This document shows, piece after piece, positions 1-36,156 of a stretch of 37,371 nucleotides of DNA; the first letter of the stretch is position 1, and each line of letters begins with the position of its first letter. The position numbers and the translations under genes are program-made. The notes below the pieces were generated by a model. It was given only the letters and a program-made list of their open reading frames with translations, was not told the DNA's origin and did no database searches. The stretch is taken from NCBI GenBank assembly GCA_030041435.1, contig JASHNW010000071.1, forward strand, positions 1 to 37,371, written 5' to 3'. Source of the stretch: Acidobacteriaceae bacterium. Lineage in GTDB: Bacteria; Acidobacteriota; Terriglobia; Terriglobales; Acidobacteriaceae.

Positions 1-180
1 GAGCTGGGAGCCGGGAGCTGGGAGCCGGGAGCTGGGAGCCGGGAGCTGGGAGCCGGGAGCTGGGAGCCGGGAGCTGGGAGCCGGGAGCCGGGAGCCGGGA
101 GCTGGGAGCCGGGAGCTGGGAGCCGGGAACTGGGAGCTGGGAGCGGGGAGCTGGGAGCTGGGAGCCGGGAGCCGGGAGCT
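1..180. repeat. Heptanucleotide tandem array GGGAGC(T/C), array 1
   Basis: After a partial unit at 1-5, 25 consecutive 7-nt units of consensus GGGAGCT or GGGAGCC run from 6 to 180. The first eleven alternate strictly C/T at the last base, giving a 14-nt higher-order period. Units near 125-145 carry substitutions (GGGAACT, GGGAGCG). The array probably continues left of the window and stops next to the cupin gene. Because 7 is not a multiple of 3, three units make a 21-nt, seven-codon period that stays open in several frames; this is not evidence of coding. Confidence 0.97.
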
Positions 181-186
181 GGTGAA

Positions 187-576
187 TTGGGAGGAGAGTT
201 GGCCGAGGAGAACGGCGGGGTGCGTGGGGTGGTGAGCGCGGAGTCGGCGGAGCATTACGTTTGGGGCGAGATGTGCGACGGGTGGCATCTGGTGCGCGAC
301 GAGGGGCTGAGCGCGATTGAGGAGCGGATGCCGGCGGGGGCGCGGGAACAGCGGCATTTTCATGTCAGGGCGCGGCAGTTCTTCTATGTGCTGGAGGGTG
401 AGCTGACACTGGAGGTGGAGGGTGTGCGGCATCGGATGCGCGCGCGAGAAGGGATCGAGATTGCTCCTGGCGAGCGGCATCAGGCGATGAACGAAGCCGC
501 TGCGGATGCAGGGGCAGACGCGCGCTTTCTGGTGATTTCGTCGCCGCCTGGGCAGGGGGACCGGACGGCCTGCTGA
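187..576 (+). CDS. Cupin-domain protein
   Basis: Single-domain cupin of about 129 residues. The glycine/histidine cupin motif 1 is visible ([20 protein letters not shown], about residues 57-76), and motif 2 follows ([10 protein letters not shown], about 92-101), with the usual metal-ligand pattern of His/His/Glu then His. Small cupins of this kind bind a metal and act as isomerases, dioxygenases or sensors; the substrate cannot be read from sequence. The start is uncertain: TTG at 187 directly follows the heptamer array, and TTG 199, GTG 223 or ATG 271 are alternatives. ATG 271 would still leave the cupin core intact. It lies 86 nt upstream of the S53 protease gene on the same strand, with no evident functional link. 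Confidence 0.8.
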
Positions 577-662
577 GCCATGGAGCGAGGATGCGCGCCG
601 GCGCCAAAGCGCAGGTAACAGAATTGCGCTAAGATGGCCGAGCATTCCTGGAGGTTCAGGCC

Positions 663-2249
663 ATGAGCACCCCGGCTCAGAAGCGCATCAACCTGCCCCG
701 TTCCGAACGCGTAGTTCCACCCTGGGCAACCCACATCGGCCGCACCGACGCACAACAGGTGATCAGCGTCTCGGTGATCGTGAAAAGAAAGAACCCTCTG
801 AGCCTGCGCGAGCTGGGCGGGCACAGGGTGTCGCGCGAAGAGTTCGACGCGCAATACGCGGCCGATCCGGCGACGTTTGCGGCCATGCGGAGGTTTGCGC
901 ATCAGCACGGCCTGGCAGTGGACGAGGCAGCGTCGAGCCTGTCGCGGCGGACGATCGTGCTGCGCGGGACGGTGCAGGCGATGGAGCGGGCGTTCGGCGT
1001 GGAGCTGCACGATTACGAGGAGACGGCGGATCCGAACGTGCCGGCTCCGCATGTGCGGGCAGGCCGTCGCTTTCACGGATTTACGGGGACGATTTCTCTG
1101 CCGGAGACGCACGCGGGGCTGGTGGACGCGGTGCTGGGACTGGATGCACGGCCGATTGCAAGGCCTCACTTTCGATTCCGGAAGGATTTGAAGAGCGCAG
1201 CGGCGCCTGCGGCCGGCGGGGAGCAGCCGGAGCCATTCAATCCGCCCCAGGTGGCCCAGCTCTATAACTTTCCAACGAACGTGAATGGGAGCGGGGAGAC
1301 GATCGGGATTCTGGAACTGGGCGGGGGATACAACACGAGCGATCTGGAGACGTATTTTCAGGGGCTGGGGCTGAAGGTGCCGACGGTGGTGGCGGTTTCC
1401 GTCGATGGCGGGACGAATTCGCCGACGAATGCAAACAGCGCCGACGGAGAGGTGGCGCTGGATATCGAGGTGGCGGCATCGATTGCCAACGGAGCGAACA
1501 TTGCGGTGTATTTTGCCCCGAATACGGATCAGGGATTCATCGACGCGATCACGACGGCGGTGCACGACACGACGAACTCGCCGTCGGTGCTGTCGATCAG
1601 CTGGGGAGGGCCGGAGTCGACGTGGGCGCAGTCGTCGATAACGGCGCTGGACGATGCGTGCCAGTCGGCGGGGGCGCTGGGGGTGACGATTACGGTGGCT
1701 TCGGGCGATAACGGGTCGTCGGACGGGGTGAGCGACGGGCAGAATCACGTGGATTTTCCGGCGTCGAGCCCGCACGTGCTGGCGTGCGGCGGGACGGAGC
1801 TGATCGCGTCGGGCACGACGATCGAGAGCGAGACGGTGTGGAACGACGGAAGCCAGGGCGGGGCGAGCGGCGGCGGATTCAGCACGGTGTTTGCGGCTCC
1901 GACATGGCAGACGGGGGTGGAGGGTTTCACCGGAACCATGCGCGGCGTGCCGGACGTGGCGGGGGACGCGGCGCCGGAGAGCGGCTACAACATCCTGGTG
2001 GACGGCGATCAGGAAGTGGTGGGCGGGACGAGCGCGGTGGCTCCGCTGTGGGCTGCGCTGATTGCGCTGATCAACCAGCAGAAGGGGTCGGCGGTGGGGT
2101 TCGTGAACCCGACGCTGTACACGGATCCGGGAGATTTTCACGACATTACGCAGGGAAACAACGGGGCCTATTCGGCGGGGCCGGGCTGGGACCCTTGTAC
2201 CGGCCTGGGTTCGCCGGACGGCGAGGAGATTGCGACGGCGCTGGGCTGA
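663..2249 (+). CDS. S53 (sedolisin/kumamolisin-type) serine-carboxyl peptidase with prodomain
   Basis: A 528-residue acid-active endopeptidase precursor. Residues 1 to about 185 match the Pro-kumamolisin activation domain; the catalytic domain follows. The catalytic residues are readable: Glu263 and Asp267 in GEVALD, Asp349 in ASGDNG (oxyanion hole) and nucleophile Ser457 in GGTSAVAP. The C-terminal calcium site is present (Asp494-Ile, then a Gly-rich loop ending at Asp510 in GPGWDPCTG). No signal peptide is visible, so the export route is unclear; some family members also lack a classical one. The start is supported by GGAGG placed 8 nt before ATG. All four key residues are intact, so it is probably active. 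The role is probably extracellular or acidic-compartment protein degradation (family knowledge). Confidence 0.95.
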   Translation: MSTPAQKRINLPRSERVVPPWATHIGRTDAQQVISVSVIVKRKNPLSLRELGGHRVSREEFDAQYAADPATFAAMRRFAHQHGLAVDEAASSLSRRTIVLRGTVQAMERAFGVELHDYEETADPNVPAPHVRAGRRFHGFTGTISLPETHAGLVDAVLGLDARPIARPHFRFRKDLKSAAAPAAGGEQPEPFNPPQVAQLYNFPTNVNGSGETIGILELGGGYNTSDLETYFQGLGLKVPTVVAVSVDGGTNSPTNANSADGEVALDIEVAASIANGANIAVYFAPNTDQGFIDAITTAVHDTTNSPSVLSISWGGPESTWAQSSITALDDACQSAGALGVTITVASGDNGSSDGVSDGQNHVDFPASSPHVLACGGTELIASGTTIESETVWNDGSQGGASGGGFSTVFAAPTWQTGVEGFTGTMRGVPDVAGDAAPESGYNILVDGDQEVVGGTSAVAPLWAALIALINQQKGSAVGFVNPTLYTDPGDFHDITQGNNGAYSAGPGWDPCTGLGSPDGEEIATALG

Positions 2250-2271
2250 GTGGAGCGGGGAGCGGGTCTGC

Positions 2272-2308
2272 GATTACGCGAAAATGCGTTACGCTAAAAT
2301 GCGTAATC
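2272..2308. repeat. TTACGC-core-GCGTAA element, upstream copy
   Basis: Three evenly spaced half-sites: TTACGC at 2274-2279, the core GCGTTACGC at 2286-2294 and GCGTAA at 2301-2306, each 15 nt from the next. The outer arms GATTACGC/GCGTAATC (2272-2279, 2301-2308) are a perfect 8-nt inverted repeat. It lies 13 nt upstream of the GTG start of the ATPase gene, a position suited to an operator or promoter-embedded site. The same architecture recurs just after that gene. Confidence 0.85.
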
Positions 2309-2321
2309 AGGGGCACGAATC

Positions 2322-3464
2322 GTGGCGAACCCGGAAAACCCGTTCATTTTCGGCGAAGTGATCGACGAGCCGTATTTCGTCAACCGGACAAGCGAGCTGC
2401 GGGACCTGGTGCGCGACCTGGCGGACGGGCAGAAGGTGTTCCTGCTGTCTCCGCGCCGCTTTGGGAAGAGCTCGCTGGTGGCCCTGGCCCTGCTGAAGCT
2501 GAGAAAAAAGCATATTCGCACCGTCAGCCTGACGGTGAGCAGTTATTCCAGCTACACACAGTTTCTGGAGAAATTTGCCGAGAAGGTGCTGCGGGCGGCC
2601 GGCCCCTGGGACCGCGTGAAGGACTGGGTGGCGCGATTCGGGCGGAACGTCAAGCCTGACATCAACTACAACATGACGACCGGCGAGGTGAGCGTGTCGC
2701 TGGGCCGCGGCGCGGGGTTCGATCCGGTACCGATTGCGCCCGAGATTTTTGCCATGCCGGGGGAACTGACCAGGAACGCAGGTTTTCGCATGGCCATCTG
2801 TCTGGACGAGTTCCAGCAGATCTCGGAGTTCGACAGCGGAACGGTGGAGAGCGCGATTCGGAACGAGGTGCAGGAGCAACGGGAAGTGGGCTATGTTTTC
2901 GCCGGATCGCAGCCCTCGCTGGTGAGGGAGATGCTGTCGGCGCGGCGCCCGTTCCACAAAGCGGGCCCGCAAATGTTTCTCGGGAAGATCGCGGCCGGGG
3001 ACTGGAAGGCGTACATCAGCCGGCAATTCGGACAACGAGGAAGGCGCCTGGAGGAGACGGCGATGGAGGCGCTGCTGGCGGCAGCGGATCTGATTCCGTA
3101 CGACGTGCAGCGCATTGCGCACGAGCTTTGGGATTATGCAGAGCTGAAGGACAAGCGGGAGCTGACGAACGCGGATGTCCAGTCCGTGATCGACCGTCTG
3201 GTTGCCGCGCAATCCACCTATTACGAGCTTCTCTGGGAACAGCTGACCGTGGGGCAGAGGGCGGCACTGCAGGCAGTCGCGGAGCGAGGACCCTCCGATA
3301 TTTACGCGCAGACAGTGCGGAGCGAATTCCGCCTGGGGCCGGCGTCGACGGTGCAGAGAGCGTTGCGGTCGCTGGACGCAAAAGACATCCTGGATCGCTA
3401 TGAGGACCGCACCTTTTTCGTGGACCCGCTCTTCCCGGTGTGGATTCGCGCGAAGACGGCATGA
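2322..3464 (+). CDS. P-loop ATPase of the AAA/STAND-like single-gene type
   Basis: A 380-residue protein opening with the NPFxFG...FVNR segment typical of stand-alone archaeal/bacterial P-loop ATPases of the ATPase_2/AAA group. The Walker A motif is SPRRFGKSSL (about residues 43-52). A Walker B-like LDEFQQ lies near 155-160 (CLDEFQQI), followed by a sensor-like FAGSQPSL. The C-terminal third looks like a winged-helix region (REL...GQRAALQAVAERGPSDIYA). The function of this family is unknown; members are often solitary and patchily distributed. The GTG start at 2322 gives the conserved N-terminus. The gene is bracketed by two copies of a TTACGC/GCGTAA element 1.2 kb apart, suggesting self-regulation or that the gene and repeats travel together. 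No toxin or partner gene is adjacent. Confidence 0.8.
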   Translation: MANPENPFIFGEVIDEPYFVNRTSELRDLVRDLADGQKVFLLSPRRFGKSSLVALALLKLRKKHIRTVSLTVSSYSSYTQFLEKFAEKVLRAAGPWDRVKDWVARFGRNVKPDINYNMTTGEVSVSLGRGAGFDPVPIAPEIFAMPGELTRNAGFRMAICLDEFQQISEFDSGTVESAIRNEVQEQREVGYVFAGSQPSLVREMLSARRPFHKAGPQMFLGKIAAGDWKAYISRQFGQRGRRLEETAMEALLAAADLIPYDVQRIAHELWDYAELKDKRELTNADVQSVIDRLVAAQSTYYELLWEQLTVGQRAALQAVAERGPSDIYAQTVRSEFRLGPASTVQRALRSLDAKDILDRYEDRTFFVDPLFPVWIRAKTA

Positions 3465-3468
3465 GCGG

Positions 3469-3501
3469 TTACGCCGAACGGCGTTACGCACTTTGGCGTA
3501 A
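3469..3501. repeat. TTACGC-core-GCGTAA element, downstream copy
   Basis: TTACGC at 3469-3474, the identical core GCGTTACGC at 3481-3489 and GCGTAA at 3496-3501, with the same 15-nt spacing and the same 33-nt length as the copy upstream of the ATPase gene. The spacers differ in sequence (cgaacg/actttg versus gaaaat/taaaat). In this copy the left arm extends to TTACGCC/GGCGTTA. It starts 4 nt after the ATPase stop codon. Confidence 0.85.
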
Positions 3502-3506
3502 CAGAC

Positions 3507-3670
3507 GGCTAAAGCCCAACGCATTTTCAGGCGCTTACGGCACGACTCGCACCCCAGCGAGCAAGCTCGCCGGGGACCCCGCTGAAGTCGTGCCCTGATA
3601 CAAGAGCAAGGAAATATTCTTCAACGAACTTGTGAGACAGGACACTCAACGAACTTGCGAGACAGGACGC
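3507..3670. repeat. Interspersed intergenic repeat, complete copy
   Basis: The left part (3507-3547, ending in GCTTACGGCACGACT) matches 16482-16522 at 38 of 41 positions. The right part (3584-3645, starting GAAGTCGTGCCCTGATAC) matches 17379-17440 at 55 of 62. GGCACGACT and AGTCGTGCC would pair as a hairpin around a GC-rich insert at 3548-3583. A 25-nt segment (TCAACGAACTTGTGAGACAG...) at 3621-3645 is repeated in tandem at 3646-3670 with two mismatches. No coding content is apparent. Confidence 0.85.
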
Positions 3671-3840
3671 TAATAGACTTCGCGGTGGAACAGGTCGTCC
3701 TTCTCTTCACAGGGCGAGCAGACGCAGCCGATGGCGCATCCGACGAGGATGGCCACACCCAGTGTGATCAGCACGGCTGGCAGGTAACTGCTGACCTCGG
3801 AAACGCGTGCCAGAAGTTCGTGCATGTTCAGATACCCCAT
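3670..3840 (-). CDS. Small single-pass membrane protein with clustered cysteines
   Basis: A 56-residue ORF reading from ATG at 3840 to TAG. GGGAG lies 6 nt before the start, a good ribosome-binding site. The protein has a short N-terminal helix (MGYLNMHELLARVSEVSS), one hydrophobic segment (about residues 20-41, YLPAVLITLGVAILVGCAIG), then a cysteine cluster CxxxCxCxxC (Cys35, 39, 41, 44) at the membrane edge and an acidic tail EEKDDLFHREVY. I do not recognise the family. The cysteines could bind metal, be lipidated or form disulfides. It lies on the same strand as hpnE but 177 nt beyond that gene's stop, with its own possible promoter region. A plus-strand ORF on the same bases looks less protein-like. 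Confidence 0.6.
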   Translation of the reverse strand: MGYLNMHELLARVSEVSSYLPAVLITLGVAILVGCAIGCVCSPCEEKDDLFHREVY

Positions 3841-3861
3841 AACCAGCTCCCATTGATATAG

Positions 3862-3885
3862 AAACCTGAATCCTTTGTCAGGTTT
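3862..3885. promoter_or_regulatory. Perfect 8-bp hairpin in the leader of the small membrane-protein gene
   Basis: AAACCTGA (3862-3869) and TCAGGTTT (3878-3885) form a perfect stem with an 8-nt loop, 21 nt upstream of the minus-strand start at 3840. Read on the plus strand, the stem runs into TTTTC and resembles a weak intrinsic terminator, although no convincing plus-strand gene ends here. A 5'-leader structure is the alternative. Confidence 0.4.
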
Positions 3886-8030: not shown

Positions 8031-8074
8031 GGGGAAGCCGGGGTTTGGCGGCGGCAGGGTCAGGGGCCTGGCTT

Positions 8075-8132
8075 TCTGCGGGGTGCTCTCCCGATCTTAG
8101 GTTTCTGCGGGCTGCTCTCCCGATCTTAGGTA
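8075..8132. repeat. 29-nt tandem duplication
   Basis: Two head-to-tail 29-nt units (8075-8103 and 8104-8132) with core GCTCTCCCGATCTTAGGT differ at two positions; a partial third unit (TCTGC) follows. The repeat lies just beyond the stop of the dehydrogenase gene at 8163. Confidence 0.9.
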
Positions 8133-8162
8133 TCTGCAGAATTCGTGTTTCTGAGCCTTTGC

Positions 8163-11879: not shown

Positions 11880-12896
11880 CTATTCGCGACTCGCGCTCGC
11901 CTTCGGCGCGTAGCCGTGGTCGCGGAACCAGTCGATGGCGCAGCGCAGGGCCTGGTAGACGGGGACGTTGCGAAAGCCGAGTTCGCGTTCGGCTTTGGCA
12001 GAAGAGGCGAACATCATTTTTTTGCCCATGCGGACGGCCTCGACGGTGGCGCGAGGCTCTTTGCCGCGGATTTTGCCGGTGATGGTTTCGTCGAAGAAGG
12101 CGAACACCATGGCGACGGAGTGCGGAACCTTCATGGTGGGCGAGGGCAGGCCGGTGATGGCGGACATCTTGTCGAGGATCTGCTTGAGGGTGAGATTTTC
12201 GCCGCCAAGGATGTAGCGTTCGCCGGGGCGGCCGAGGCTGGGCGAGACGCCGTCGGCGTGGGTGCGGGCCACTTCGCGGACGTCGACGAGGTTGAGTCCG
12301 GTATCGACGTAGGCGGGGAATTTCCGGTTCAGAAAATCGACGACAATGCGGCCGGTAGGGGTGGGCTTGAGGTCGCCGGATCCGATGGGGGTGGTGGGGT
12401 TGAGGATGAGGACGGACTGGCCGGAGCGGGCGGCCTCAATCGCGACCTGTTCGGCGAGGAATTTGGAGCGCTTGTAGGGTCCGACCATGTCGGCGAGGGA
12501 AACGGGGGTGGCCTCGTCGACGATGGTGCCGTCGGCTTTGAAGCTCATGGTGGCGACCGAGGAGGTGTAGACGCAGCGGGGGACGGATTCTTCACGGGCG
12601 ATGCGCAGCAGGGCGCGCGTGCCTTCGACGTTGATGCGGTACATGGTGTCGGGGTCGCGGACCCAGAGGCGGTAATCGGCAGCGACGTGCATCACCACGT
12701 CGCAACCGCGAACGGCGGAGCGGAGGGATTCGGGATTGAGGAGATCGCCGACGGCCGTTTCGGCCGGCAGGCCTTCGAGATTGGCGAGATTGCTGGTGGG
12801 ACGGACGAGGAGGCGGAGGTCGGCGCCGCGCGTGGCGAGCTCGCGGGCGACGTGAGAGCCGACGAATCCGGTAGCGCCGGTGACGAAGATCTTCAT
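11880..12896 (-). CDS. hpnA: Hopanoid-associated sugar epimerase HpnA
   Basis: A 338-residue extended short-chain dehydrogenase/epimerase. Nucleotide-binding TGATGFVG at residues 6-13, TSSVAT at 111-116 and the catalytic YKRSK (Tyr141, Lys145) are intact. HpnA is found with hopanoid genes and named a sugar epimerase; its exact reaction is not settled. The start is ATG 12896 (MKIFVTGATGF). The reading frame stays open 125 codons further upstream only because it runs through the heptamer array and antisense hemQ, so longer models are wrong. No Shine-Dalgarno is seen (CCCAGCCTT precedes ATG). The array begins 6 nt upstream of the start, so any leader lies within repeats. An NAD-dependent dihydroflavonol-reductase-like role is the generic alternative. 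Confidence 0.88.
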   Translation of the reverse strand: MKIFVTGATGFVGSHVARELATRGADLRLLVRPTSNLANLEGLPAETAVGDLLNPESLRSAVRGCDVVMHVAADYRLWVRDPDTMYRINVEGTRALLRIAREESVPRCVYTSSVATMSFKADGTIVDEATPVSLADMVGPYKRSKFLAEQVAIEAARSGQSVLILNPTTPIGSGDLKPTPTGRIVVDFLNRKFPAYVDTGLNLVDVREVARTHADGVSPSLGRPGERYILGGENLTLKQILDKMSAITGLPSPTMKVPHSVAMVFAFFDETITGKIRGKEPRATVEAVRMGKKMMFASSAKAERELGFRNVPVYQALRCAIDWFRDHGYAPKASASRE

Positions 12897-12902
12897 AAGG
12901 CT

Positions 12903-13098
12903 GGGAGCTGGGAGCTGGGAGCCGGGAGCCAACGGCGAGAAGCCGGGAGCTGGGAGCTGGGAGCCGGGAGCCAACGGCGAGAGGCTGGGAGCTGGGAGCT
13001 GGGGGCCAGGAGCTGGGAGCTGGGAGCTGGGAGCCGACGGCGAGAGGCCGGGAGCTGGGAGCTGGGAGCTGGGAGCTGGGAGCTGGGAGCCGGGAGCG
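12903..13098. repeat. Heptanucleotide array 2, GGGAGC(T/C) with phase-locked 14-nt interruptions
   Basis: 28 seven-nucleotide slots (196 nt) in perfect register. Most are GGGAGCT/GGGAGCC. Three 14-nt interruptions of type AACGGCGAGA(A/G)GCC occupy exactly two slots each, keeping the phase. Decayed units (TGTAGCT, CGAAGCG) trail to about 13119, next to the hemQ stop. It fills almost the whole interval between hemQ and hpnA, both on the minus strand. Confidence 0.97.
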
Positions 13099-13125
13099 TG
13101 TAGCTCGAAGCGGGTAGCGCGGCGA

Positions 13126-13962
13126 TCATGGCTGCTCCAGAGAGAGCCAGGAGCCGAGCTGGCTGACAGGGAGGCGCACGCCGACATAGAAGGCGCCGAA
13201 GAGGCCGTAGAGGGCGCTGGCTTCGTCGAAGCGCATTTCGTAGATGAGGCGCTTGAAGACGCCGGGATCATCGGAGAAGAGATCGACGCCCCACTCCCAG
13301 TCGTCGAGGCCGATGGAGCCGGAGATGATTTGCTTCACCGTGCCGGCGAAGCGGCGGCCGATGAGGCCGTGTTCGTGCATCATGCGGGCGCGCAGCTGCA
13401 TGGGCGCGGTGTACCAGTTGACGTGCTCGCCGCGGCGCTTGTCCATGGGATAAAAGCAGAGGTATTTGGTCTCGGGGATGGCCGGAAAGAGGCGCGAAGC
13501 CATGGCGGCGGCGGAGCGGTCGACGACTTCCTGGATGCGCTTGTCCCAGTCGTCGCTGAACGGCGCGACGCCCTCTTTGGCGAGAACCGGATAGGTCTTG
13601 ACGGAGGACTCGTAGAGGCCGAGCTCGACGATGGAGAGATAGGAATGCGTGGGCTCAAGAAAGCTGCCGAATTCCGTGCGGGCCAGGCTGCGCTGGACGG
13701 CGGCGAGCTGGTCGATGGAGTCGCGGAAGTGGACGAACATGAGGTCGCCCTTGTGGCCGAGTTGGGCGAAGACGGCGGACTGACTGGGGCGCTCGCCTGC
13801 AGAGCCGCGCTCCATGGGCTCGAGCAGAGCGGCCGCTTCGGCGATGGCGCGGTCGCGGGCGGAGGGATCGAGCCGGCGCCAGGCTGCCCAGTCGAAGCGG
13901 AACATCTGGTGGAGCAGGCTGGAGCCATCGAGCGTGAGGGGAAAAGGGGGTATTTCGGGCAA
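13126..13962 (-). CDS. hemQ: Coproheme decarboxylase HemQ (chlorite-dismutase family)
   Basis: A 278-residue protein of the chlorite-dismutase-like superfamily, HemQ branch, which decarboxylates two propionates of coproheme III to heme b in the coproporphyrin-dependent pathway. Visible marks are FYPMDKRRGEHVNWY (catalytic Tyr of YPMDKRR, residue about 161), MMHEHGLIGRRFAG with the proximal-type histidine (about 186-188) and GLDDWEWGVDLFSDD. The start is TTG at 13962: GGAGGAA lies 4 nt before it, and this gives the usual LPEIPPFPLTLDGSS N-terminus. The frame stays open upstream into a GGGTACA heptamer block, so an ATG-based longer model would be wrong. No other heme gene is nearby. Confidence 0.9.
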   Translation of the reverse strand: MPEIPPFPLTLDGSSLLHQMFRFDWAAWRRLDPSARDRAIAEAAALLEPMERGSAGERPSQSAVFAQLGHKGDLMFVHFRDSIDQLAAVQRSLARTEFGSFLEPTHSYLSIVELGLYESSVKTYPVLAKEGVAPFSDDWDKRIQEVVDRSAAAMASRLFPAIPETKYLCFYPMDKRRGEHVNWYTAPMQLRARMMHEHGLIGRRFAGTVKQIISGSIGLDDWEWGVDLFSDDPGVFKRLIYEMRFDEASALYGLFGAFYVGVRLPVSQLGSWLSLEQP

Positions 13963-13980
13963 GGACTTCCTCCGGATCAA

Positions 13981-14015
13981 GGGTACAGGGTACAGGGTAC
14001 AAGGTGCAGGTTGCG
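13981..14015. repeat. Heptanucleotide block GGGTACA, array 5
   Basis: Five 7-nt units: GGGTACA three times, then AGGTGCA and GGTTGCG. It lies between the hemQ start and the acyl-CoA synthetase stop. The related block at 36123-36156 uses the same degenerate forms GGGTGCA and GGTTGCG. Confidence 0.9.
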
Positions 14016-14027: not shown

Positions 14028-15836
14028 TCAGCGTTTGGAGATGGATTCGTCGGCGTAGAACTCGGCGATTTCGATGGCGTATTTCTGCGCGATGATGCGG
14101 CGGCGGAGCTTCATGCTGGGGGTTAGTTCGCCGGAGTCGATGGTCCATTCTTCGTGAACAATGCGAAAGCGCTTGATGGTTTCGAAGTTGGCGAGGGTGG
14201 CGTTGATTCTGTCAATCTGCGCCTGATATTCCGCTCGGACCTGGGGATGGGTGACCAGATCGAACCGCGAGGAAGCGACGATGCCCTGTTCTCTGGCCCA
14301 TGGCTCGAGCGCGGCGAAATTCGGCGCTATGAGGGCGGAGGCAAATTTATGGCGGTCGCCGACGAGGGCGGCGTTCGCGACCAGAAAGTGCGCTTTGAGC
14401 TTGTTCTCGATGGGCTGGGGGGCAATGAATTTGCCGCCGGAGGTTTTGAGCAGCTCTTTTTTGCGGTCGGTGATGAAAAGGAAGCCGTCCTGGTCGATGT
14501 GGCCGATGTCGCCGGTGCGGAACCAGCCTTCGGCGTCGAAAACTTCGGCGTCACCTCGGCCCTTCCAGTAGCCGGGGAAGATGTTGGGGCCGCGGACGAG
14601 GAGTTCGCCATCTTCGGCGATGCGGCACTCGAGGTTGGGCAGCGGTCTGCCGACGGAGCCCATGCGGTTGGCGTTGGGAGTGTTGATGGCGAGGACGGGC
14701 GAGGTTTCGGTGAGGCCGTAGCCTTCGAGAATGCGGATGCCGGCAGAGGCAAACCAGTGCGCGGTGTCGAGGCCGAGGGGCGCGCCGCCGGCGATGAAGT
14801 AGCGGACGCGGCCGCCGAATCCGGCGCGGAGTTTTTTGTAGACCAGGGCGTCGGCGAGCTTCCAGGCCGGCGAAGCGGGCTGACGGCCGGCGGCCACGGT
14901 TTCGATGTGCTTCCGGCCCGTGCCGAGGGCCCAGGCGAAGAGGCGGCGCTTGAATCCGGACTCGGAGGATTTCTGCTCCGCGACCTGGCGCACCTTCTCA
15001 TAGACGCGCGGGACGGCGACGATGATGGTAGGACGGATCTGCTGCATGGTTTGCGGGAGCTGGTCGAAGGCGGGGCAGTAGGCAATGGTGACGTTCTGCG
15101 CGTAGAGGGCGTAGTCGAGATGGCGCGCAGTGATGTGCGAGAGCGGGAGGAAAGAGATGCAGGAGTCGGCGGAGGTGAAGCCGAATTCGGCGGTGGAGTA
15201 GTTGACGTTGCAGGCGATGTTGCCTTGGGTGAGCATGACACCCTTGGGGTCGCCGGTGGTGCCGGAGGTGTAGATGAGGGTGGCGAGGTCGTCGGGCTGG
15301 ACCTGGTGCGCGGTCCGATCGAAGTCAGAGCCGGCGGGCGTGGCGAGGAGCGAGGAAAATGTAACGGCGTTGGGCACATTTTCCTCGTCCATGATAACGA
15401 CGCGCTCCAGCGGCAAGGCAGCGCGGATGGAGGCGATCTTGTCGAGCTGGGTGCGCGTGGAGAGGAAGAGGACGCGGGAGCCGGAGTCGGCGAGCAGCGG
15501 GGCGATCTGATCGGCGAGGAGGGTGGGGTAGAGGGGGACGTCGACGATGCCGAGGGCGAGGCAAGCAAAGTCGGCGACGGCCCACTCCCAGCGATTTTCG
15601 GCGAGGATGGCAACGCGGTCGCCTTTGCGGATGCCCCAGGAGTGCAGCGCGGCAGCGACGGCGCGGACGCGCCGGCAAAATTCGCCGGAGGAGATGGGAA
15701 GCCATGCGCCGGAGGGGTCGCGCACGAGCACAGCCTGTTCGCGCCGGCTGGCTTCAAGGGTGAAGAGGATATCGTTGAGGGTCTGGAGGTTGAGCACCGC
15801 GCCGACTACTCTATCGGAGTGGAAGCGGGGGTGCAA
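14028..15836 (-). CDS. Long-chain fatty acid-CoA ligase (AMP-binding family)
   Basis: An acyl-CoA synthetase of about 590-602 residues that activates fatty acids to acyl-CoA through an acyl-adenylate. ANL-superfamily motifs in order: YTSGTTGDPKGVM (P-loop, about 190-202), PLSHITARH, EGYGLTETSP, WFRTGDIG with ITDRKKELLKTSGGK, and the C-terminal LTPSMKLRR lysine region. FadD15/long-chain type by length. Two starts are possible: TTG 15836 or GTG 15797 (VLNLQTLNDILF, the more family-like start). TTGCAC and TAGAGT 17 nt apart lie between them, hinting at a promoter that would give a nearly leaderless message from GTG 15797; this is tentative. HemQ follows 65 nt after its stop on the same strand. 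Confidence 0.92.
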   Translation of the reverse strand: MHPRFHSDRVVGAVLNLQTLNDILFTLEASRREQAVLVRDPSGAWLPISSGEFCRRVRAVAAALHSWGIRKGDRVAILAENRWEWAVADFACLALGIVDVPLYPTLLADQIAPLLADSGSRVLFLSTRTQLDKIASIRAALPLERVVIMDEENVPNAVTFSSLLATPAGSDFDRTAHQVQPDDLATLIYTSGTTGDPKGVMLTQGNIACNVNYSTAEFGFTSADSCISFLPLSHITARHLDYALYAQNVTIAYCPAFDQLPQTMQQIRPTIIVAVPRVYEKVRQVAEQKSSESGFKRRLFAWALGTGRKHIETVAAGRQPASPAWKLADALVYKKLRAGFGGRVRYFIAGGAPLGLDTAHWFASAGIRILEGYGLTETSPVLAINTPNANRMGSVGRPLPNLECRIAEDGELLVRGPNIFPGYWKGRGDAEVFDAEGWFRTGDIGHIDQDGFLFITDRKKELLKTSGGKFIAPQPIENKLKAHFLVANAALVGDRHKFASALIAPNFAALEPWAREQGIVASSRFDLVTHPQVRAEYQAQIDRINATLANFETIKRFRIVHEEWTIDSGELTPSMKLRRRIIAQKYAIEIAEFYADESISKR

Positions 15837-19864: not shown

Positions 19865-19941
19865 GCTCAGTGCACAGTGCTCAGTGCTCAGTGCACAGTG
19901 CTCAGTGCACAGTGCTCAGTGCACAGTGCCCCGTGGAGAGT
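19865..19941. repeat. Heptanucleotide array 4, GCTCAGT/GCACAGT
   Basis: Nine 7-nt units alternating GCTCAGT and GCACAGT (19865-19927), then two decayed units in the same register (GCCCCGT, GGAGAGT). It starts 8 nt after the uppS stop and ends next to the stop of the convergent VWFA-like gene. Neighbouring units are partly self-complementary, so a transcript could fold. Confidence 0.95.
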
Positions 19942-19946: not shown

Positions 19947-20897
19947 CTATTCGTGCGCGATACCGGCCGGGGCGACCCATACTTTTTGGGGCGCGTCCAC
20001 TTTCACATTGGAAGCGGTGGTTTTCACTTTCAGATTTTCCACCTCAGGCTTGCCTTTGAGGGCGGTAGTGAAGCTGAGCTCGTACTGGTTATTGAGACGG
20101 CGGCTGAGGTCGTCGAAGTACGGCTGCAGCGATACGGGATTGCCCGTACCGATCCAGTAGCTCTTGCCGCCGGTGGCCTCGTCGAGCTGAAGAAGAAGAT
20201 TCTGGCCGGCGTTGTTTTCATACCCGCTGCGGTCGGCGCGACCGTTGCTGAGCCAATAGATGGAGTACACGACGAGCCTGGCGCGCACCGAGTCGTCGAT
20301 GGCAGCCTGGACGTAGGGGTCCTCGGGATCGTATTGCCGCTCGTACTGGTCGACTCCATCGGTAATCATCATCACCTCACGGCGAGCTGTGGGATCCGTG
20401 GAGGGCCAGTTCTTCGCCAGGCTGGAGAGGCAAAAATAGGGACTGGCGGCATAGCCCGGCTCGCCGATGGGGAGGTGCAGGGTCTGCAGGGCTTTGGCGT
20501 GGTCAGAGGTCAGTGGGCCGGGCAGGACGGCGCGTCCGTTTTCCATGTAAGCAAATGCGAATTTGACGTTGGGGGGCAGGCTTTGAACGAAATGGGTGAT
20601 ATCGTCCCATTCGCGGCCGAGGCTTATACGCGCGCCGTCGTCGATGAGGAGAATCAGCTCCACACCGGACTGCGTACCGCGCAGCGGCTGCCAGTTGATG
20701 GCATTCGTGCGTTTGCCGTTGAGCTGGACGCTCATGCTGCTGCCGGCAACGTCGGACGCAGCCTGACTGGCGTTCTTCGGCAGGACAGTGACAACGGCCT
20801 GACCCTGTGCCTGATTTTCGTTTTGGGCGACAGCCATCGGGGCTGCGGCCAGGAGTCCGGCCAAAACCGCCGGCAAGTACAGAAATGCTCTTCCCAT
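19947..20897 (-). CDS. Secreted VWFA-like protein, degenerate MIDAS
   Basis: A 316-residue exported protein. The signal peptide is MGRAFLYLPAVLAGLLAAAP followed by MAVAQ. The mature part has a von Willebrand A-like fold: LILLIDDGAR (residues 81-90) occupies the place of the metal-site DxSxS, and MMITDGVD the place of the later TDG loop. The DxSxS serines are missing, so metal binding may be lost. Similar VWFA-like proteins are numerous in acidobacteria; their function is unknown. The start ATG 20897 has GAGAGGA upstream; the longer open frame has no signal peptide. It is followed on the same strand by the convergent heptamer array. Confidence 0.85.
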   Translation of the reverse strand: MGRAFLYLPAVLAGLLAAAPMAVAQNENQAQGQAVVTVLPKNASQAASDVAGSSMSVQLNGKRTNAINWQPLRGTQSGVELILLIDDGARISLGREWDDITHFVQSLPPNVKFAFAYMENGRAVLPGPLTSDHAKALQTLHLPIGEPGYAASPYFCLSSLAKNWPSTDPTARREVMMITDGVDQYERQYDPEDPYVQAAIDDSVRARLVVYSIYWLSNGRADRSGYENNAGQNLLLQLDEATGGKSYWIGTGNPVSLQPYFDDLSRRLNNQYELSFTTALKGKPEVENLKVKTTASNVKVDAPQKVWVAPAGIAHE

Positions 20898-21124
20898 ATA
20901 TTCAATTTCCTCTCCGTCCTTATGCCGCCCGCGGTAGCGTCCGGGCGGACGAAGTCCGGACCAGGGCAGGGAGAGCCGGCACAAAAGGCGGATCCCCCAC
21001 TTCGTTAGATGGGTGGAGAGAGCGATTTGTCTCACGAAGCGCAGTCGGGCAGCTTAAGGGGCGATGCGCTCCGGCTGCGCAGGCGGAGGGTGGAATCGAG
21101 TCGATACCCCGGTTGCAGAAGCGG

Positions 21125-23450: not shown

Positions 23451-24824
23451 ATGCGTAAAGTTCTCATCGCCAATCGCGGCGAAATCGCGCTGCGTGTCAT
23501 CTGTGCCTGCAAGGAAATGGGCATTCGCACGGTCGCTATTTACAGCGAGGCGGACCGGCACTCGCTGCACGTGCGCTTTGCCGACGAGGCTATCTGCATT
23601 GGGCCGCCGCGCTCAGCAGAAAGCTATTTGAACGTGCCCGCAGTGATCAGCGCGGCGGAGATCGCCGATGTGGATGCCATTCATCCGGGTTACGGGCTGC
23701 TGAGCGAGAACGCGAACTTCGCCGAGGTGTGCCGGGCGTCGAACATCAAGTTCATTGGGCCGCCGCCGGAAGTGACGCGGCTGATGGGAGAAAAGGAGAA
23801 GGCTCGCCAGGCGATGAAGAAGGCAAGGGTGCCGATTCTGCCGGGGTCGGACGGCACGATCCAGAGCGAGGGAGAAGCGCTGGAGTGGGCGAAGACGGTC
23901 GGCTACCCGGTGATTCTGAAGGCTTCGGCGGGGGGTGGTGGGCGCGGCATGCGCGTGGTGCGGTCGGGAGAAGAGCTGCCGGGACTGTTTCAGGCGGCGC
24001 AGAGCGAGGCGGCCAACGCGTTCGGAAACGGCGAGCTGTATATGGAGAAATTCATCGAGCGGCCGCGGCACATCGAATTTCAGATTCTGGCCGATGAGCA
24101 TGGCACGGCGCTTTCGATCGGGGAGCGCGAGTGCTCGATTCAGAGGCGGCATCAGAAATTGATTGAGGAAGCGCCCTCGCTGATGGTGACGCCGAAGCTG
24201 CGCGAGGAAATTGCAAAGACGCTGAAGCGGTGCCTGGAGGGCGTGGGGTACCAGAACGCGGGGACGATCGAGTTCCTGATGGATGAGGACGGGAAGCTGT
24301 ACTTCATCGAGATGAACACGCGCATCCAGGTGGAGCATCCGGTAACGGAGATGATCACGGGGATCGATCTGGTGAAGGCGCAGCTGCGCATCGCGCAGGG
24401 AGAGAAGCTGTCCAGCATCGTGCCGGAGACGATTCCTCTGCGCGGGCATGCGATCGAGTGCCGCGTGAATGCCGAGCATCCGGAGAAGTTCACGCCGTCG
24501 GCGGGGAAGATTACGGCGTTCAATGTGCCGGGCGGGAACGGGATTCGCGTGGACACAGCGCAGTATTCCGAGGGTGTGGTGCCGCCGTATTACGACTCGC
24601 TGATTGCGAAGCTGATTGCGTGGGGCGGGGACCGCGAGGAAGCGATGGCGCGGATGCGGCGGGCGCTGGAGATGTTTGTGGTGGAGGGAATCCACACGTC
24701 GATTCCGCTCCATCAAAGGATCTTCCGGGACGAGGAGTTCAAGCGCGGGCAGTTCGACACGAAGTTTATGGAGCGGTTCTTCGAGCGAGAGAACCAGAAG
24801 AAGCTGGATCTGGCGGGTAACTAG
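23451..24824 (+). CDS. accC: Biotin carboxylase subunit of acetyl-CoA carboxylase
   Basis: A 457-residue ATP-grasp enzyme that carboxylates the biotin of AccB using ATP and bicarbonate. The N-terminus is [16 protein letters not shown]. The glycine-rich ATP loop is [12 protein letters not shown], the metal/bicarbonate site is [14 protein letters not shown], and the substrate loop is [20 protein letters not shown]. The start is ATG 23451, 5 nt after the accB stop; the frame opens earlier only inside accB. The stop TAG shares the tetramer CTAG (24821-24824) with the stop of the convergent gene. Confidence 0.97.
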
Positions 24825-25678
24825 ACATCGCAGATTTGGACTGCTTGGCGCAGGCTGGTGAGCGGGTCGCCGGTGGGCAGAAACTCGTGGGCGACGTAAT
24901 CGGAGAAGGGCAGGCCGGCGATGGCCTTCATCACCGCGACATACTGAATCTCCTGCGTGGCATCGATTTCGTGGCGGCCGGGTACGCCGCCGGTGTGGAA
25001 GTGGCCGATGACGCCGATGTTCGCAGAGATGGTGTCGATCAGGTCTCCCTCCATGATCTGCATGTGGTAGATGTCGTAGAGCAGCCTGACGCGGGGTGAG
25101 TTGACCTCGTGCATGACGCGAGCGCCCCAGGCGGTGTGGTCGGCCATGTAGTCAGGGTGATTCACCTTGCTGTTGAGCAGCTCGAGACAGATGGTGACGC
25201 CGTTGTCCTCGGCGATTTGCTTCACGCGATTGAGGCCGATGACGGTGTTGCGAGCGCCTTCCTCGTCCGACATGCCGCGGCGATAACCGGAAAAGGTGAT
25301 GACGTTGGGGACGCCCGCTTTGGCGGCGATGGGGATGTTTTTGCGGAAGGCGGCTTCAATGGCTGCGTGGTTCTCGATGCGGTTGAGGGCGTCGGGGATG
25401 GTGCCGCCTCCGGCGTAACCCATGGTGCAGAGAAGGCCGTAGCGGCGCGGAACTTCGTAATCGGGCACGTCGAGGAGATCGATGCCTTTGAGGCCGAGGC
25501 CGACGGCCCACTGGCAAAGCTCATTGAGAGAAGTATCGGCGTAGCACCAGCGACAGACGGACTGATGGATGCGGGCCTGGCCGGCGGCGGACCTGTTTTG
25601 CTGTGCGGGTGCGGGGAGGGCAGCGGTGAGCGAAGCGGCTGCTCCGGATTTGAGAAAGGCGCGGCGTGAGGGAGACAC
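24821..25678 (-). CDS. Tat-exported sugar phosphate isomerase/epimerase-like TIM-barrel protein
   Basis: A 285-residue xylose-isomerase-like TIM-barrel protein, closest to hydroxypyruvate isomerases (Hyi type). Twin-arginine leader [25 protein letters not shown] at residues 2-26. Metal/catalytic residues in the barrel: Glu in [14 protein letters not shown], Asp in [14 protein letters not shown], His in [13 protein letters not shown] and Glu near the end ([11 protein letters not shown]). Such proteins isomerise small sugars or 2-ketoacids; export of this one implies a periplasmic substrate (inference). It is convergent with accC, with overlapping stop codons, and preceded by GGGTACA-type heptamers. 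Confidence 0.88.
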
Positions 25679-25734
25679 GGGTACAGGGTACAGGTTTCAG
25701 GGTGCAGGGTGCTGCACGGAGGGGTCAAAGTGCA
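25679..25734. repeat. Heptanucleotide block GGGTACA/GGGTGCA
   Basis: In-register 7-nt units: GGGTACA twice, GGTTTCA, GGGTGCA, GGGTGCT, then decayed GCACGGA, GGGGTCA, AAGTGCA. It lies just upstream of the Tat-protein start and leads into the GGGAGCT array after a 3-nt phase shift. Confidence 0.85.
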
Positions 25735-25737
25735 GCC

Positions 25738-25898
25738 GGGAGCTGGGAGCTTGGAGCTGGGAGTTGGGAGCCGGTAGCTGGGAGCTGGGAGCTGGGAGCC
25801 GGGAGCTGGGAGCTGGGAGCCGGGAGCTGGGAGCCGGTAGCCGGGGGCTGGGAGCTGGGAGCTGGGAGCAAAAAGCAAAAAGCAAAAAGCCAAAAGCG
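25738..25898. repeat. Heptanucleotide array 3, GGGAGCT switching to AAAAGCA in register
   Basis: 23 consecutive 7-nt units. The first 19 (25738-25870) are GGGAGCN with a few variants (TGGAGCT, GGTAGCT, GGGGGCT). The last four (25871-25898) are AAAAGCA, AAAAGCA, AAAAGCC, AAAAGCG with no change of phase. The invariant part is AGCN; only the first three bases switch from GGG to AAA. Confidence 0.96.
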
Positions 25899-26018
25899 TG
25901 CTGGCCGGAAGCGATTATTGGGCTTCGCGCGCAAGGCGACGGTGGGCAGCGGTCCTGTAGAATCGTCGGCGTACCCCGGGCCCCCCAGGTTCAAAGATTC
26001 TCCACGGAGATTTTCGAC

Positions 26019-32636: not shown

Positions 32637-32693
32637 AAACTCAGATAAATCGAGTATAGCGTCGGCAGGGTGCGATTAGAGATAATCAGACCC

Positions 32694-33245
32694 GTGAGCG
32701 CGACAACGGTGAACGCCGATTTGGAGGTTCTGTTCAGCCGCGAACAGATCCGGCATCGGGTGATGGAGATGGGGCGGCAGATCGACCGCGATTATGCGGG
32801 TGAGAAGATCGTTCTGGTGGGTGTGCTGAAGGGCGCGGCGATATTTCTGGCCGACCTGGCGCGCAGCATCTCGGTGGACAACACCTTCGATTTTGTGGCC
32901 GTGTCGAGCTATGGCAAGGGCCAGCGCACCAGCGGGGCGGTGAAGCTGATTAAGGACCTGGACCAGCCGATAGAAGGGAAGAACGTCATCATCGTCGAAG
33001 ACATTCTGGACACCGGGCTGACGCTGGGGTTTTTGTGCAGCCTGTTCGAGCAGCACCAGCCGAAGACGCTGAAGATTGCTGCCCTGCTGGACAAGCCGTC
33101 GCGGCGCGTGGAAAAGATCGATGCCGATTACGTGGGATTTACCATCCCCAATCGGTTTGTTATTGGATATGGGATGGATTTCGCGGAACGGTATCGGAAC
33201 CTGCCGGATATTTGCCTGATGCCGCCGGAGCTGGCGCCCCACTGA
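32694..33245 (+). CDS. hpt: Hypoxanthine phosphoribosyltransferase
   Basis: 183 residues from GTG 32694 (191 from an upstream GTG at 32670). It salvages hypoxanthine (and guanine) with PRPP. Motifs: VLVGVLKGAAIFLADL near the N-terminus, VSSYGKGQRTSG (flexible loop), VIIVEDILDTGLTL (the PRPP-binding acidic loop) and YVGFTIPNRFVIGYGMDFAERYRNLPDI. The cytosolic enzyme is of normal length. deoC follows 79 nt downstream on the same strand, so both may be a nucleotide-salvage unit. Confidence 0.93.
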   Translation: MSATTVNADLEVLFSREQIRHRVMEMGRQIDRDYAGEKIVLVGVLKGAAIFLADLARSISVDNTFDFVAVSSYGKGQRTSGAVKLIKDLDQPIEGKNVIIVEDILDTGLTLGFLCSLFEQHQPKTLKIAALLDKPSRRVEKIDADYVGFTIPNRFVIGYGMDFAERYRNLPDICLMPPELAPH

Positions 33246-33324
33246 CATCAGCCCGATTGCAACAGCCGGTCGGAAGCGGCGGGCGAAGTGCCGGGATTCA
33301 ACCGCGGCAAGAGGAGTATCTGCA

Positions 33325-34083
33325 ATGAGCACAGAGATTCATTTAATCGACGACGAAGAAGCGCTGGAATTCGTCGGCTTCGATGCGGAAGGCTTTGCGA
33401 AAGCGGCGCTGAGCTCGCCGGAGAAGCTGGCCGCGGCGATCGACCACACGCTGCTGAAGCCGGAGGCGAGGCGGGAGCAGGTAGTGAAGCTGTGCCACGA
33501 GGCGGCACAGCACAAGTTCGCCTGCGCGATGGTGAATCCGGTGTGGGCGGCGCTGGCCCACGCGGAACTGGCCGGGACGGGAATTCCGGTGGGCGCGGTG
33601 GTGGGGTTTCCGCTGGGGGCTTCGCTGGGGACGACCAAGCGCGAGGAAGCGGCGGCGCTGGTGAAGGTAGGCGCGCGCGACGTGGACATGGTAATCGGCA
33701 TCGGGCTGCTGAAGAGCGGAGAGAACCACGCGTTGCAGCAGGAGATTCGCGGGGTAGTGGAAGTGGCGCACGATGCCGGCGCGATCGTGAAGGTGATTCT
33801 GGAGACATGTCTGCTGACGGTCGAAGAGAAGCTGCGGGCCAGCGAGCTGGCGATTGCGGCGGGCGCAGATTTTCTGAAGACGAGCACGGGCTTCTCGACG
33901 GGCGGCGCGACGGTGGACGATGTGGCGCTGATGCGCGGTGTTGCGGGCGGGCGGTGCGGAGTGAAGGCTTCGGGCGGGATTCGGACGCTGGCGGATGCGC
34001 GGAAGATGCTGGAGGCAGGGGCGAACCGCATCGGGGCGAGCGCGAGCGTGGCGATTGTGCGGGAGCTGGCGGCGAGCCGCTGA
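33325..34083 (+). CDS. deoC: Deoxyribose-phosphate aldolase
   Basis: A 252-residue class I aldolase cleaving 2-deoxyribose-5-phosphate to glyceraldehyde-3-phosphate and acetaldehyde. Schiff-base Lys185 lies in DFLKTSTGF, the activating Lys214 in GVKASGGIRT and the proton-relay Asp121 in VDMVIGIG. The N-terminal 35 residues (with a run of acidic residues) extend beyond the core, which begins at AAAIDHTLLKPEA. AGAGGAG lies 8 nt before ATG. It is downstream of hpt. A hairpin without a U-tract follows the stop. Confidence 0.95.
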   Translation: MSTEIHLIDDEEALEFVGFDAEGFAKAALSSPEKLAAAIDHTLLKPEARREQVVKLCHEAAQHKFACAMVNPVWAALAHAELAGTGIPVGAVVGFPLGASLGTTKREEAAALVKVGARDVDMVIGIGLLKSGENHALQQEIRGVVEVAHDAGAIVKVILETCLLTVEEKLRASELAIAAGADFLKTSTGFSTGGATVDDVALMRGVAGGRCGVKASGGIRTLADARKMLEAGANRIGASASVAIVRELAASR

Positions 34084-34100
34084 ACCAGCTCGCAGCTGGT
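34084..34100 (+). terminator. Hairpin just after deoC, no U-tract
   Basis: ACCAGCT-CGC-AGCTGGT, a perfect 7-bp stem with a 3-nt loop, begins at the deoC stop. No T-run follows, so it is not a standard intrinsic terminator; it may stabilise the 3' end or pause polymerase. Confidence 0.3.
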
Positions 34101-34271
34101 CGCGGGTAGAGGCAGCCAGCAGGCGGTCAGCCGGAAACGCGCCGGCGAAACGCGGGATTGCGGCGAAGCCTGCAGCCTGCCACGGACCACAGGAAAACAC
34201 CGTATGATGGCATTCGTTCGGCCTGATTCGTGCGTTGGGCCACGCCGCCGTGGTGCGCCAACAGGAGATTT

Positions 34272-36119
34272 GTGAGCGAAGAGCAGCAGGGGAATCCGCA
34301 GCAACAGCCGGAGCAGGCTGATGGCGCCGCGCAGGCCGAGCACGCGTGGGAGGGAGATTACCGTCCGGCGTCAGCGGAAGCGCCGCGACCGGTGCAGGCG
34401 CACGTCGATCCGCTGCAGACGGAATTTCTGGTTCGGCTGGCGGATGCGCTGAACACCACGCTGGATCTGAAGACGCTGCTGGAGCGGACGGCGTCGCTGG
34501 TGCGGGCGGTGATCGACTACAAGATTTTCGCCATCCTGCTGATCAACGACCGGACAAACGATCTGCGGATGCGCTTCCAGATCGGACACAAGCCGGAGAT
34601 CGAGCGGCTGCGGATCCGGATGGGGCAGGGCGTGGTAGGGCAGGTGGCGCAAACGCGGCAGCCGATGCTGCTGAACGATGTGAGCAAGGCGGAGAACTAC
34701 ATCAACGCCAATCCGGAGGTGCGGTCGGAGCTGGCGGTGCCGCTGATCACCAAGAACAAGGTAATCGGCGTGATCGATATCCAGGCGGAGCAGCTGAATT
34801 ACTTCACGCAGGAACACAAGCATTTGCTGACGCTGACGGCATCGCGGATTGCCGGGGCGATTGAGAACGCGCGGCTGTACACGCGGGTGGCGCGGCAGGC
34901 GCAGACGCTGCAGGTGCTGAACGAGATCAGCCGGGAGATTACATCGATTCTGGATCCGGACGAACTGCTGGAGCGGGTGGGGCAGCTGATCCGGAGGCTG
35001 ATCGACTACCAGATGCTGTCGATCTGGCTGGTGAACGAACGGGACCAGGTGATGGAAAACCGGCTGGCTATCCGGTTTGGGGAGAGGTTCAATCCGCAGG
35101 AGAAGCTGCCGCTGGATCGTGGGCTGGTGGGCGCCGCGGTCACCGAGAAGCGGGTGATCAATGTGCCGGATGTGCGCAAGGATCCGCGGTACCACATGGT
35201 GAATCCGGATACGCGATCGGAGATGGCCGTGCCGCTGGTCTATAAGGGGCGATCGATCGGGGTGCTGGACATCGAGCATACGCGGGGGCACTTCTTCAAC
35301 GAGGACCACGAGCGCGCGCTGACGACGCTGGCCGGCCAACTGGCAATTTCGGTCGAGAATGCGCAGCTGTACCAGCGGGTGGCGCAGCAGGAGCAGCGGC
35401 TGGAGCGGGATCTGGCTATGGCGCGGGAGGTGCAGCTGCGGCTGCTGCCTCCGAAGAAGCCGCAGCACAAGCGCGCGGAGTTTGCGGCGAAGTTCCTGCC
35501 GGCGCGGACGATCGGCGGGGATCTCTACGACTTTCTGCAGTACGACGCGAACCGAAGCGCGGTGGCGCTGGGGGATGTGAGCGGAAAGGCGGCGCCGGCG
35601 GCACTGTATGCAGCGCTGGTGAGCGGGATTATGCGGTCGGTGGCGGCGCGCAAGCTGGCGCCGGGGGCGATGCTGAAGACGCTGAACGACGCGCTGCAGG
35701 AGCGGAAGCTCGATTCGCAGTACGTGACCATGCTGTTTGCGCTGTGGAACGACGAGAACCTGACAGTGCAGATTGCGAATGCCGGCTCGGTGCAGCCGCT
35801 GTTCTGCCGGGGCGAGGAGATCGAAACCATCCAGGCGGAGGGATTTCCGCTGGGCATGTTTCCCAGCGGGACGTGGGACGAGTTCAACATCTCGACGCAG
35901 CCGGGAGACTCGGTGGTATTCTTCAGCGACGGGATTGTGGACGCGCAGAATGCGGCGGGGGAAATGTTTGGGAACGACCGGCTGGTGGCGTGCGTGAAGA
36001 AGAACCAACACAAGACGGCATCGAAACTGGCAGAGAGCATTTTGGCGGAAGTGACCAGGTTCCAGGGGAAGCGGGACCGCTTCGACGATGAGACGGTGGT
36101 GGTGTTGCGGGTGATTTAG
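34272..36119 (+). CDS. GAF-GAF-SpoIIE (PP2C-type) serine phosphatase
   Basis: 615 residues from GTG 34272, with AGGAG 4 nt upstream. Two GAF sensor domains in tandem (about residues 60-205 and 215-375) precede a linker helix (QQEQRLERDLAMAREVQLRLLP) and a C-terminal SpoIIE/RsbU phosphatase domain. The phosphatase metal acids are in IGGDLYD, LGDVSGKAAPAALY, VVFFSDGIVDA and DDETVVV. Such proteins dephosphorylate anti-anti-sigma or related regulators in response to a GAF-sensed signal (family role). No STAS or anti-sigma partner is in the window. Cytosolic; no transmembrane segment. The N-terminal Gln/Pro-rich region is probably disordered. Confidence 0.93.
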   Translation: MSEEQQGNPQQQPEQADGAAQAEHAWEGDYRPASAEAPRPVQAHVDPLQTEFLVRLADALNTTLDLKTLLERTASLVRAVIDYKIFAILLINDRTNDLRMRFQIGHKPEIERLRIRMGQGVVGQVAQTRQPMLLNDVSKAENYINANPEVRSELAVPLITKNKVIGVIDIQAEQLNYFTQEHKHLLTLTASRIAGAIENARLYTRVARQAQTLQVLNEISREITSILDPDELLERVGQLIRRLIDYQMLSIWLVNERDQVMENRLAIRFGERFNPQEKLPLDRGLVGAAVTEKRVINVPDVRKDPRYHMVNPDTRSEMAVPLVYKGRSIGVLDIEHTRGHFFNEDHERALTTLAGQLAISVENAQLYQRVAQQEQRLERDLAMAREVQLRLLPPKKPQHKRAEFAAKFLPARTIGGDLYDFLQYDANRSAVALGDVSGKAAPAALYAALVSGIMRSVAARKLAPGAMLKTLNDALQERKLDSQYVTMLFALWNDENLTVQIANAGSVQPLFCRGEEIETIQAEGFPLGMFPSGTWDEFNISTQPGDSVVFFSDGIVDAQNAAGEMFGNDRLVACVKKNQHKTASKLAESILAEVTRFQGKRDRFDDETVVVLRVI

Positions 36120-36122
36120 ACA

Positions 36123-36156
36123 GGGTGCAGGTTGCGGGCGCAGGGACCAGGTTTCG
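36123..36156. repeat. Heptanucleotide remnant GGGTGCA/GGTTGCG
   Basis: Units GGGTGCA, GGTTGCG, GGCGCA (6 nt), GGGACCA, GGTTTCG directly after the phosphatase stop. It shares the forms GGGTGCA, GGTTGCG and GGTTTC with the blocks at 13981 and 25679. Confidence 0.7.

Follow-up and report, generated by a model that had tools for sequence, protein, structure and literature searches.

A putative inherited family of drifting heptanucleotide repeats at gene edges in Acidobacteriaceae

Cyanobacterial STRR sequences are intergenic heptanucleotide tandem repeats, and why such bacterial heptamer repeats should have a length of seven has been an open question since their first description. The question is raised again by a stretch of 37,371 nucleotides from an Acidobacteriaceae bacterium (the window), which carries arrays that resemble STRR sequences, by description only, in being intergenic heptanucleotide tandem repeats. 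A first-pass annotation of this DNA had read them as unrelated families and proposed a mechanism that sets unit length but not sequence. The genus makes the length question testable, since array-rich and array-poor species (labelled by their GGGWRCH counts) have common operons and the units can be aligned in register. In addition, a kept trimer beside drifting letters helps to tell an inherited unit length from a newly imposed one.

Contig C6, which begins with the window, belongs to a draft genome of 5.77 Mb in 134 contigs. Period-7 arrays were found by TRF and direct reading at seven of the eight places that had been proposed for them, the eighth (36123-36156) being scored neither by TRF nor by the period scan (Table 1). 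A second period scan with a score of at least 12 gave nine period-7 pieces and one period-9 piece, while in 40 dinucleotide-Markov shuffles of the window the mean was 0.07 arrays per shuffle, none of them with period 7. The longest array retains degenerate units (AACGGCG, AGAAGCC) in register and shows a 63-nt (9-unit) higher-order repeat. It fills the whole gap between the chlorite dismutase family gene and the epimerase gene, which we take to be hemQ and hpnA. Pfam matches were obtained for nine of the ten scanned ORFs flanking the arrays, with ORF 19947-21035 as the one without a match, and the claim that the window arrays lie at gene boundaries was borne out. The product of the minus-strand ORF 24821-25678 gave a twin-arginine signal match below cut-off, and the codon-based gene caller placed its start further in, at 25468.

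Table 1. Repeat arrays of the window and the genes of the operon followed in relatives.
Feature	Coordinates	Strand	TRF span (copies)	Remarks
hpnA-like NAD-dependent epimerase	11880..12896	-		start codon 3 nt from array 12899..13122
hemQ-like gene, chlorite dismutase family	13126..13905	-
AMP-binding enzyme, acyl-CoA synthetase-like	14028..15836	-		anchor for orthologous loci
Heptad array, GGGAGCT/GGGAGCC alternating	1..182	+	1-179 (25.6)	G-rich on +; truncated by contig start, copies are the part inside the window
Heptad array, GGGAGCT/GGGAGCC	12899..13122	+	12900-13097 (28.3)	spans entire gap, hemQ stop to hpnA start
Heptad array, GGGTACA/GGGTGCA	13980..14015	+	13980-14010 (4.4)	CTGTACC on the genes' sense strand; between AMP-binding gene and hemQ
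Heptad array, GCTCAGT/GCACAGT	19865..19941	+	19868-19929 (8.9)	about 10 nt past stop codon; flanking genes called convergent
Heptad array, GGGTACA	25679..25712	+	25679-25710 (4.6)	adjoins start of minus-strand ORF 24821-25678
Heptad array, GGGAGCT/GGGAGCC shifting in register to AAAAGCA units	25734..25908	+	25734-25869 (19.4); 25867-25897 (4.4)
Decayed heptad-like run (CAGGGTG CAGGTTG ...)	36123..36156	+		unscored by both finders

Contig C129 ends in a similar alternating GGGAGCT/GGGAGCC array (L267). Since both contigs end in these units, the assembly may break inside one array. Immediately before the C129 array, an inverted repeat read by eye surrounds a stop codon. Rfam gave no match at gathering score anywhere in the window, and a known RNA family was set aside as the identity of the arrays. 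Short repeats of two copies lie at 8073-8137 and 3621-3668; their unit lengths, 29 and 25 nt, are not divisible by seven.

The dominance of seven extended beyond the window. In 40 stretches of the same genome (708 kb), 20 of 24 arrays had period 7, the others having periods 6, 9, 15 and 18, and shuffles gave none; with a stricter score it was 16 of 19. This sample was partly array-aware, since three of the 40 stretches (L094, L097, L098) contain previously listed array places; without them, the stricter-score count was 10 period-7 arrays and at most three others. The expectation that seven should prevail genome-wide was thus confirmed in the own genome, and it carried over to the congeners with 10 of 11 arrays. 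It was weaker further out, at 9 of 18 in the family sample and 8 of 15 in the class sample, the latter drawn from genomes picked for high pattern counts and including previously listed places (L223, L225). Thirteen stretches of Paracidobacterium and Silvibacterium, two of which (L246, L249) contain previously listed places, gave 3 of 5, and 250 kb of a Trichormus plasmid gave 4 of 7, three of these with core-free units. From these counts, the dominance of seven is strongest in the genus and weaker outside it.

The array families had been called unrelated, a description that the units contradict, since most have a common core. CAG/CTG or AGC/GCT was present in 51 of 55 units picked by period alone, against 24.8 expected, a count reached in none of 2000 permutations. 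Four units were core-free, and after duplicate removal the trimer remained in 32 of 36 units (16.4 expected). When all trimers were scanned at periods 4 to 16 in the own sample, 51 runs of at least five were counted at period 7 while no other period exceeded 16, with zero trimer runs at period 7 in the shuffled sample. Among these period-7 runs, AGC/GCT made up 19 of 51 in the own genome, 3 of 17 in congeners, 4 of 21 in the family and 13 of 27 in the class, and CAG/CTG made up 7 of 51, 7 of 17, 4 of 21 and 6 of 27, respectively. Among arrays with five units or more, AGC or CAG varied least of all trimers in 34 of 58 and did not in 24, with a mean mismatch of 0.151 in core windows and 0.235 in other windows. 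The core-unit, gene-overlap and least-variable-trimer counts use array pieces, so a long array may count repeatedly.

Units also change along single arrays without loss of register. Such morphing was seen at C4:2325, C55:18717 and C58:36218, with GCTCCCA passing to GCTATCC and then GCTAACC at C58:36239, and in the window GGGAGCT passes to AAAAGCA inside the array at 25734-25908. A run of 29 units in L264, counted until CTG failed, has CTG at the start of every unit and the remaining four letters in eight forms. Since the core trimer is frequent and often varies least, most families resemble versions of a single degenerate heptad. In another contig of the own genome (C102; L100, 11269-11297), a TTTAGGG array begins at a stop codon; its unit is identical in letters to that of plant telomeres.

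Different units are also seen at one orthologous place. At least one of the two gaps in the AMP-binding - hemQ - hpnA operon contains heptads in the own genome and in congeners G002, G005, G006, G008 and G010, and G007 has a short heptad run. The units vary by congener (GCTCCCA, GCTACTG, GCTGCTG, GCTACAG; CTGTACC, CTGTAAC, GCTGAAC, GCTATCC). In the hemQ-hpnA comparison, which leaves out G009 and G011, gaps without heptads measured 20 nt in G001, 2 nt in G003, -1 nt in G004, and 12 and 5 nt in two outgroups. A tree of the AMP-binding protein, made without G005 and G011, placed the array-poor G001, G004, G007 and G009 together (93/95) and the array-rich G002, G006, G008 and G010 together (100/99). 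No position was resolved for the own genome or for G003, and the array-rich species did not form one resolved clade. In G005 the AMP-binding - hemQ gap is enlarged (L118/L151), and a Y1 transposase gene of the REP-associated type lies among its heptad arrays. With 71-77% identity, the closest matches to a window protein came from metagenome genomes that carry the titles Acidobacteriaceae, Acidobacterium or Acidobacteria, among listed records from which those most similar to the window's own may be missing.

The position and orientation of the arrays were then compared with gene edges, taken from a simple codon-based caller for which stops are firmer than starts. All 33 array pieces of the own sample and the window had less than half of their length in genes, compared with 19.8% at random. 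Among own and congener arrays with room (at least 100 nt free), 18 of 25 lay within 12 nt of a gene edge after removal of duplicates, against 2.5 expected, and the G-rich strand pointed outward in 17 of 17 untied cases, with one tie. In a wider set, to which loci picked for their arrays were added (L243, L248, L254, L259-L262), 32 of 56 lay within 12 nt (5.3 expected), 27 of them G-outward, four C-outward and one tied. These edge figures were obtained after removal of four double-counted arrays (L102 = L184, part of L107 = L169), which reduced 99 rows to 95. Where attachment to a single edge was clear (51 arrays), the core pointed outward in 37 and inward in 8 with 6 ties, and by G versus C the direction was outward in 37 and inward in 13 with one tie.

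Paired arrays follow an order as well. Neighbours of opposite orientation within 300 nt had the G-rich array first and the C-rich one second in eight of eight cases, three of them at previously listed places (L223, L249 twice) and none from the loci picked for their arrays; seven other neighbour pairs had the same orientation, and two had an undecided member. Six further G-then-C pairs within about 250 nt were found at listed places of Paracidobacterium, and none in the reverse order. Two inverted pairs have arms with a common order of irregular units (L263, 32 nt, 97% complementary; L248, 35 nt, 89%), and in these one arm looks as if it had been copied from its partner. A third examined pair reached 81%, and L264 had no common unit order. 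A simple end-extension model was considered for these arrangements and set aside, since it accounts for the G-then-C pairs but not for how single arrays are oriented at gene edges.

Much of this anatomy has been described elsewhere. PMC4692102 reports G-rich heptameric repeats in Xanthomonas (GGGAATC) and Nostoc (GGGGAYT) that lie nearest the ORF they point away from, regardless of how that ORF runs. These repeats overlap stop codons and are arranged singly or as inverted pairs; in a comparison of two species their gene context was mostly the same, with changes in length and sequence. The acidobacterial arrays are alike in the 7-nt unit, the non-coding place close to ORF ends with the G strand outward, the overlap with stop codons, the single or inverted-pair layout, and a context conserved in relatives with varying length and sequence. 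They differ in having several units per genome linked by the CAG/AGC core, many of them without GGG, and in belonging to Acidobacteriota. Neither GGGNATC nor GGGGAYT, the unit forms of that account, describes them, since the units are GGGAGCT, GGGTACA, AGCGGAC, CTGATCG and others. The same source mentions three heptanucleotides in Calothrix. PMC4679880 describes TAACTGA heptamers in Beggiatoaceae and cyanobacteria, which are likewise intergenic and tandem and in Microcystis are mixed with other heptamers; unlike the acidobacterial arrays, the Beggiatoaceae genome has one fixed sequence, in which single-base variants rarely repeat. Both papers cite a 2007 survey in which heptanucleotides were over-represented in many bacteria and which suggested that DNA polymerase touches a stretch of 7 nt. 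The anatomy mostly matches the repeats of PMC4692102, and the polymerase-contact idea is already in print. No such arrays were found in the literature on heptamer or tandem repeats in Acidobacteria, judged by titles and the starts of abstracts. New, as far as the literature was searched, are the common drifting core, the several units per genome in the group and the test outside arrays reported below.

On balance, we are inclined to regard the arrays as one inherited, drifting intergenic heptad family that grows by local duplication and is kept at gene edges, with any function putative. Arrays would grow and shrink in 7-nt steps, each comprising a single unit or more, through replication slippage or unequal exchange, and could sometimes be copied inverted across a gap by template switching. 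Point mutation would change their units while sparing the trimer. Unit length would be inherited because point mutation alters sequence, while a change of period needs the same indel in every unit. In 21 long arrays, adjacent units differed by 1.44 letters, those three to eight apart by 2.04-2.25, and units in shuffled order by 2.07, with the register held to lag 49; this similarity of neighbours and the 63-nt higher-order repeat agree with a history in which single units or groups of units were duplicated and later mutated. Tolerance just past stop codons, together with transcription (G-rich non-template strand), may lie behind the edge preference and orientation, which is the least supported step of the explanation. 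Against an inherited family stand the four C-outward edge arrays of the wider sample and the inward core in 8 of 45 decided arrays, as do the four core-free units, the 24 arrays in which the core does not vary least and the failure of the array-rich species to form one resolved clade. Furthermore, heptads are reported to be over-represented across many bacteria that are not related, and inheritance inside a single class leaves this unexplained.

If replication itself favoured 7-nt slippage, for example through a contact of about 7 nt with the polymerase, any sequence could become a heptad array. The prevalence of seven here and the over-representation in many bacteria cited in PMC4679880 and PMC4692102 speak for it, as do the core-free period-7 arrays of the Trichormus plasmid. 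A length imposed on new duplications should make two-copy events at lag 7 stand out outside arrays. Such doublets numbered 8 in the own genome (0-12 at other lags), 4 in array-rich congeners (0-10), 3 in array-poor congeners (0-6), 4 in family loci without arrays (1-7), 3 in the class sample (1-9), 2 in other taxa (0-7) and 7 in the Trichormus plasmid (0-9). The counts are small in every sample, and the congener sets were recounted without overlapping loci; five short loci with all 80-mers in common, as runs of N would have, were kept in the base totals. Three array-bearing relatives (G017, G019, G036) did show an excess, with 7 against 0-4 at other lags. This favours general slippage and counts against the inherited-family reading unless the doublets are decayed heptads, which their flanks resemble by eye. 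Since the own genome, congeners, family loci and other taxa lack a lag-7 excess and the units have a common core, general slippage is an unlikely though tangible alternative. The proposal that length is set and sequence free was therefore half right: seven dominates, but the sequence is held to a core, and no excess at lag 7 appears in the own genome or its congeners. The arrays could instead be selected regulatory elements (G-quadruplexes, hairpins or protein-binding heptads) past stops or before starts. Their edge position and orientation, the G-then-C arms able to form long stems, the core conserved over the flanking letters and the anatomy in common with the G-rich repeats of PMC4692102 would suit such a role. 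Three congeners nevertheless have no arrays in the same operon, varied genes flank the window arrays, and many units have no GGG tract (AGCGGAC, CAGTGCA, GCTGATC), which speaks against the G-quadruplex as common factor. We consider selection for regulation rather doubtful.

Other processes that might write or release repeats fared worse. A mobile or enzyme-borne one (REP-associated transposase, reverse transcriptase or end-extension) would agree with the Y1 transposase gene in the G005 gap, and extension of two facing 3' ends would fit the G-then-C pairs. The transposase link was rejected on abundance, which does not follow the arrays: PF01797 is found in 12 of 12 genus genomes and peaks, with 6 matches, in the array-poor G004. 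A writing process of this type is quite improbable. Loss of mismatch repair, which would let repeats grow, is hardly credible: nothing was found in its support, and MutS1 scored above the family cut-off in 11 of 12 genus genomes, the own included, the twelfth being the array-rich G011, where MutS1 lies in pieces on two contigs. A further possibility is copying anchored on the CAG/CTG trimer, in which every cycle would extend an outward-facing 3' end at a gene by seven nucleotides, in a manner somewhat like that of telomerase. Length and trimer would then be fixed and four letters free, and two facing ends would give G-then-C pairs; we hold this to be improbable.

Traces of heptads extend through the class. 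At least one GCT-type heptad run was found in 122 of 299 of its genomes, where the reversed control also matches many. In two class families (f5, f7) this control (TCG at period 7) often exceeds the GCT pattern, and some of their genomes may have heptads with another core. CTG-type heptads like those of Acidobacteriaceae were also seen in a Rhodanobacteraceae MAG (G340, L126), which may reflect transfer, a shared origin or mis-binning of the genome.
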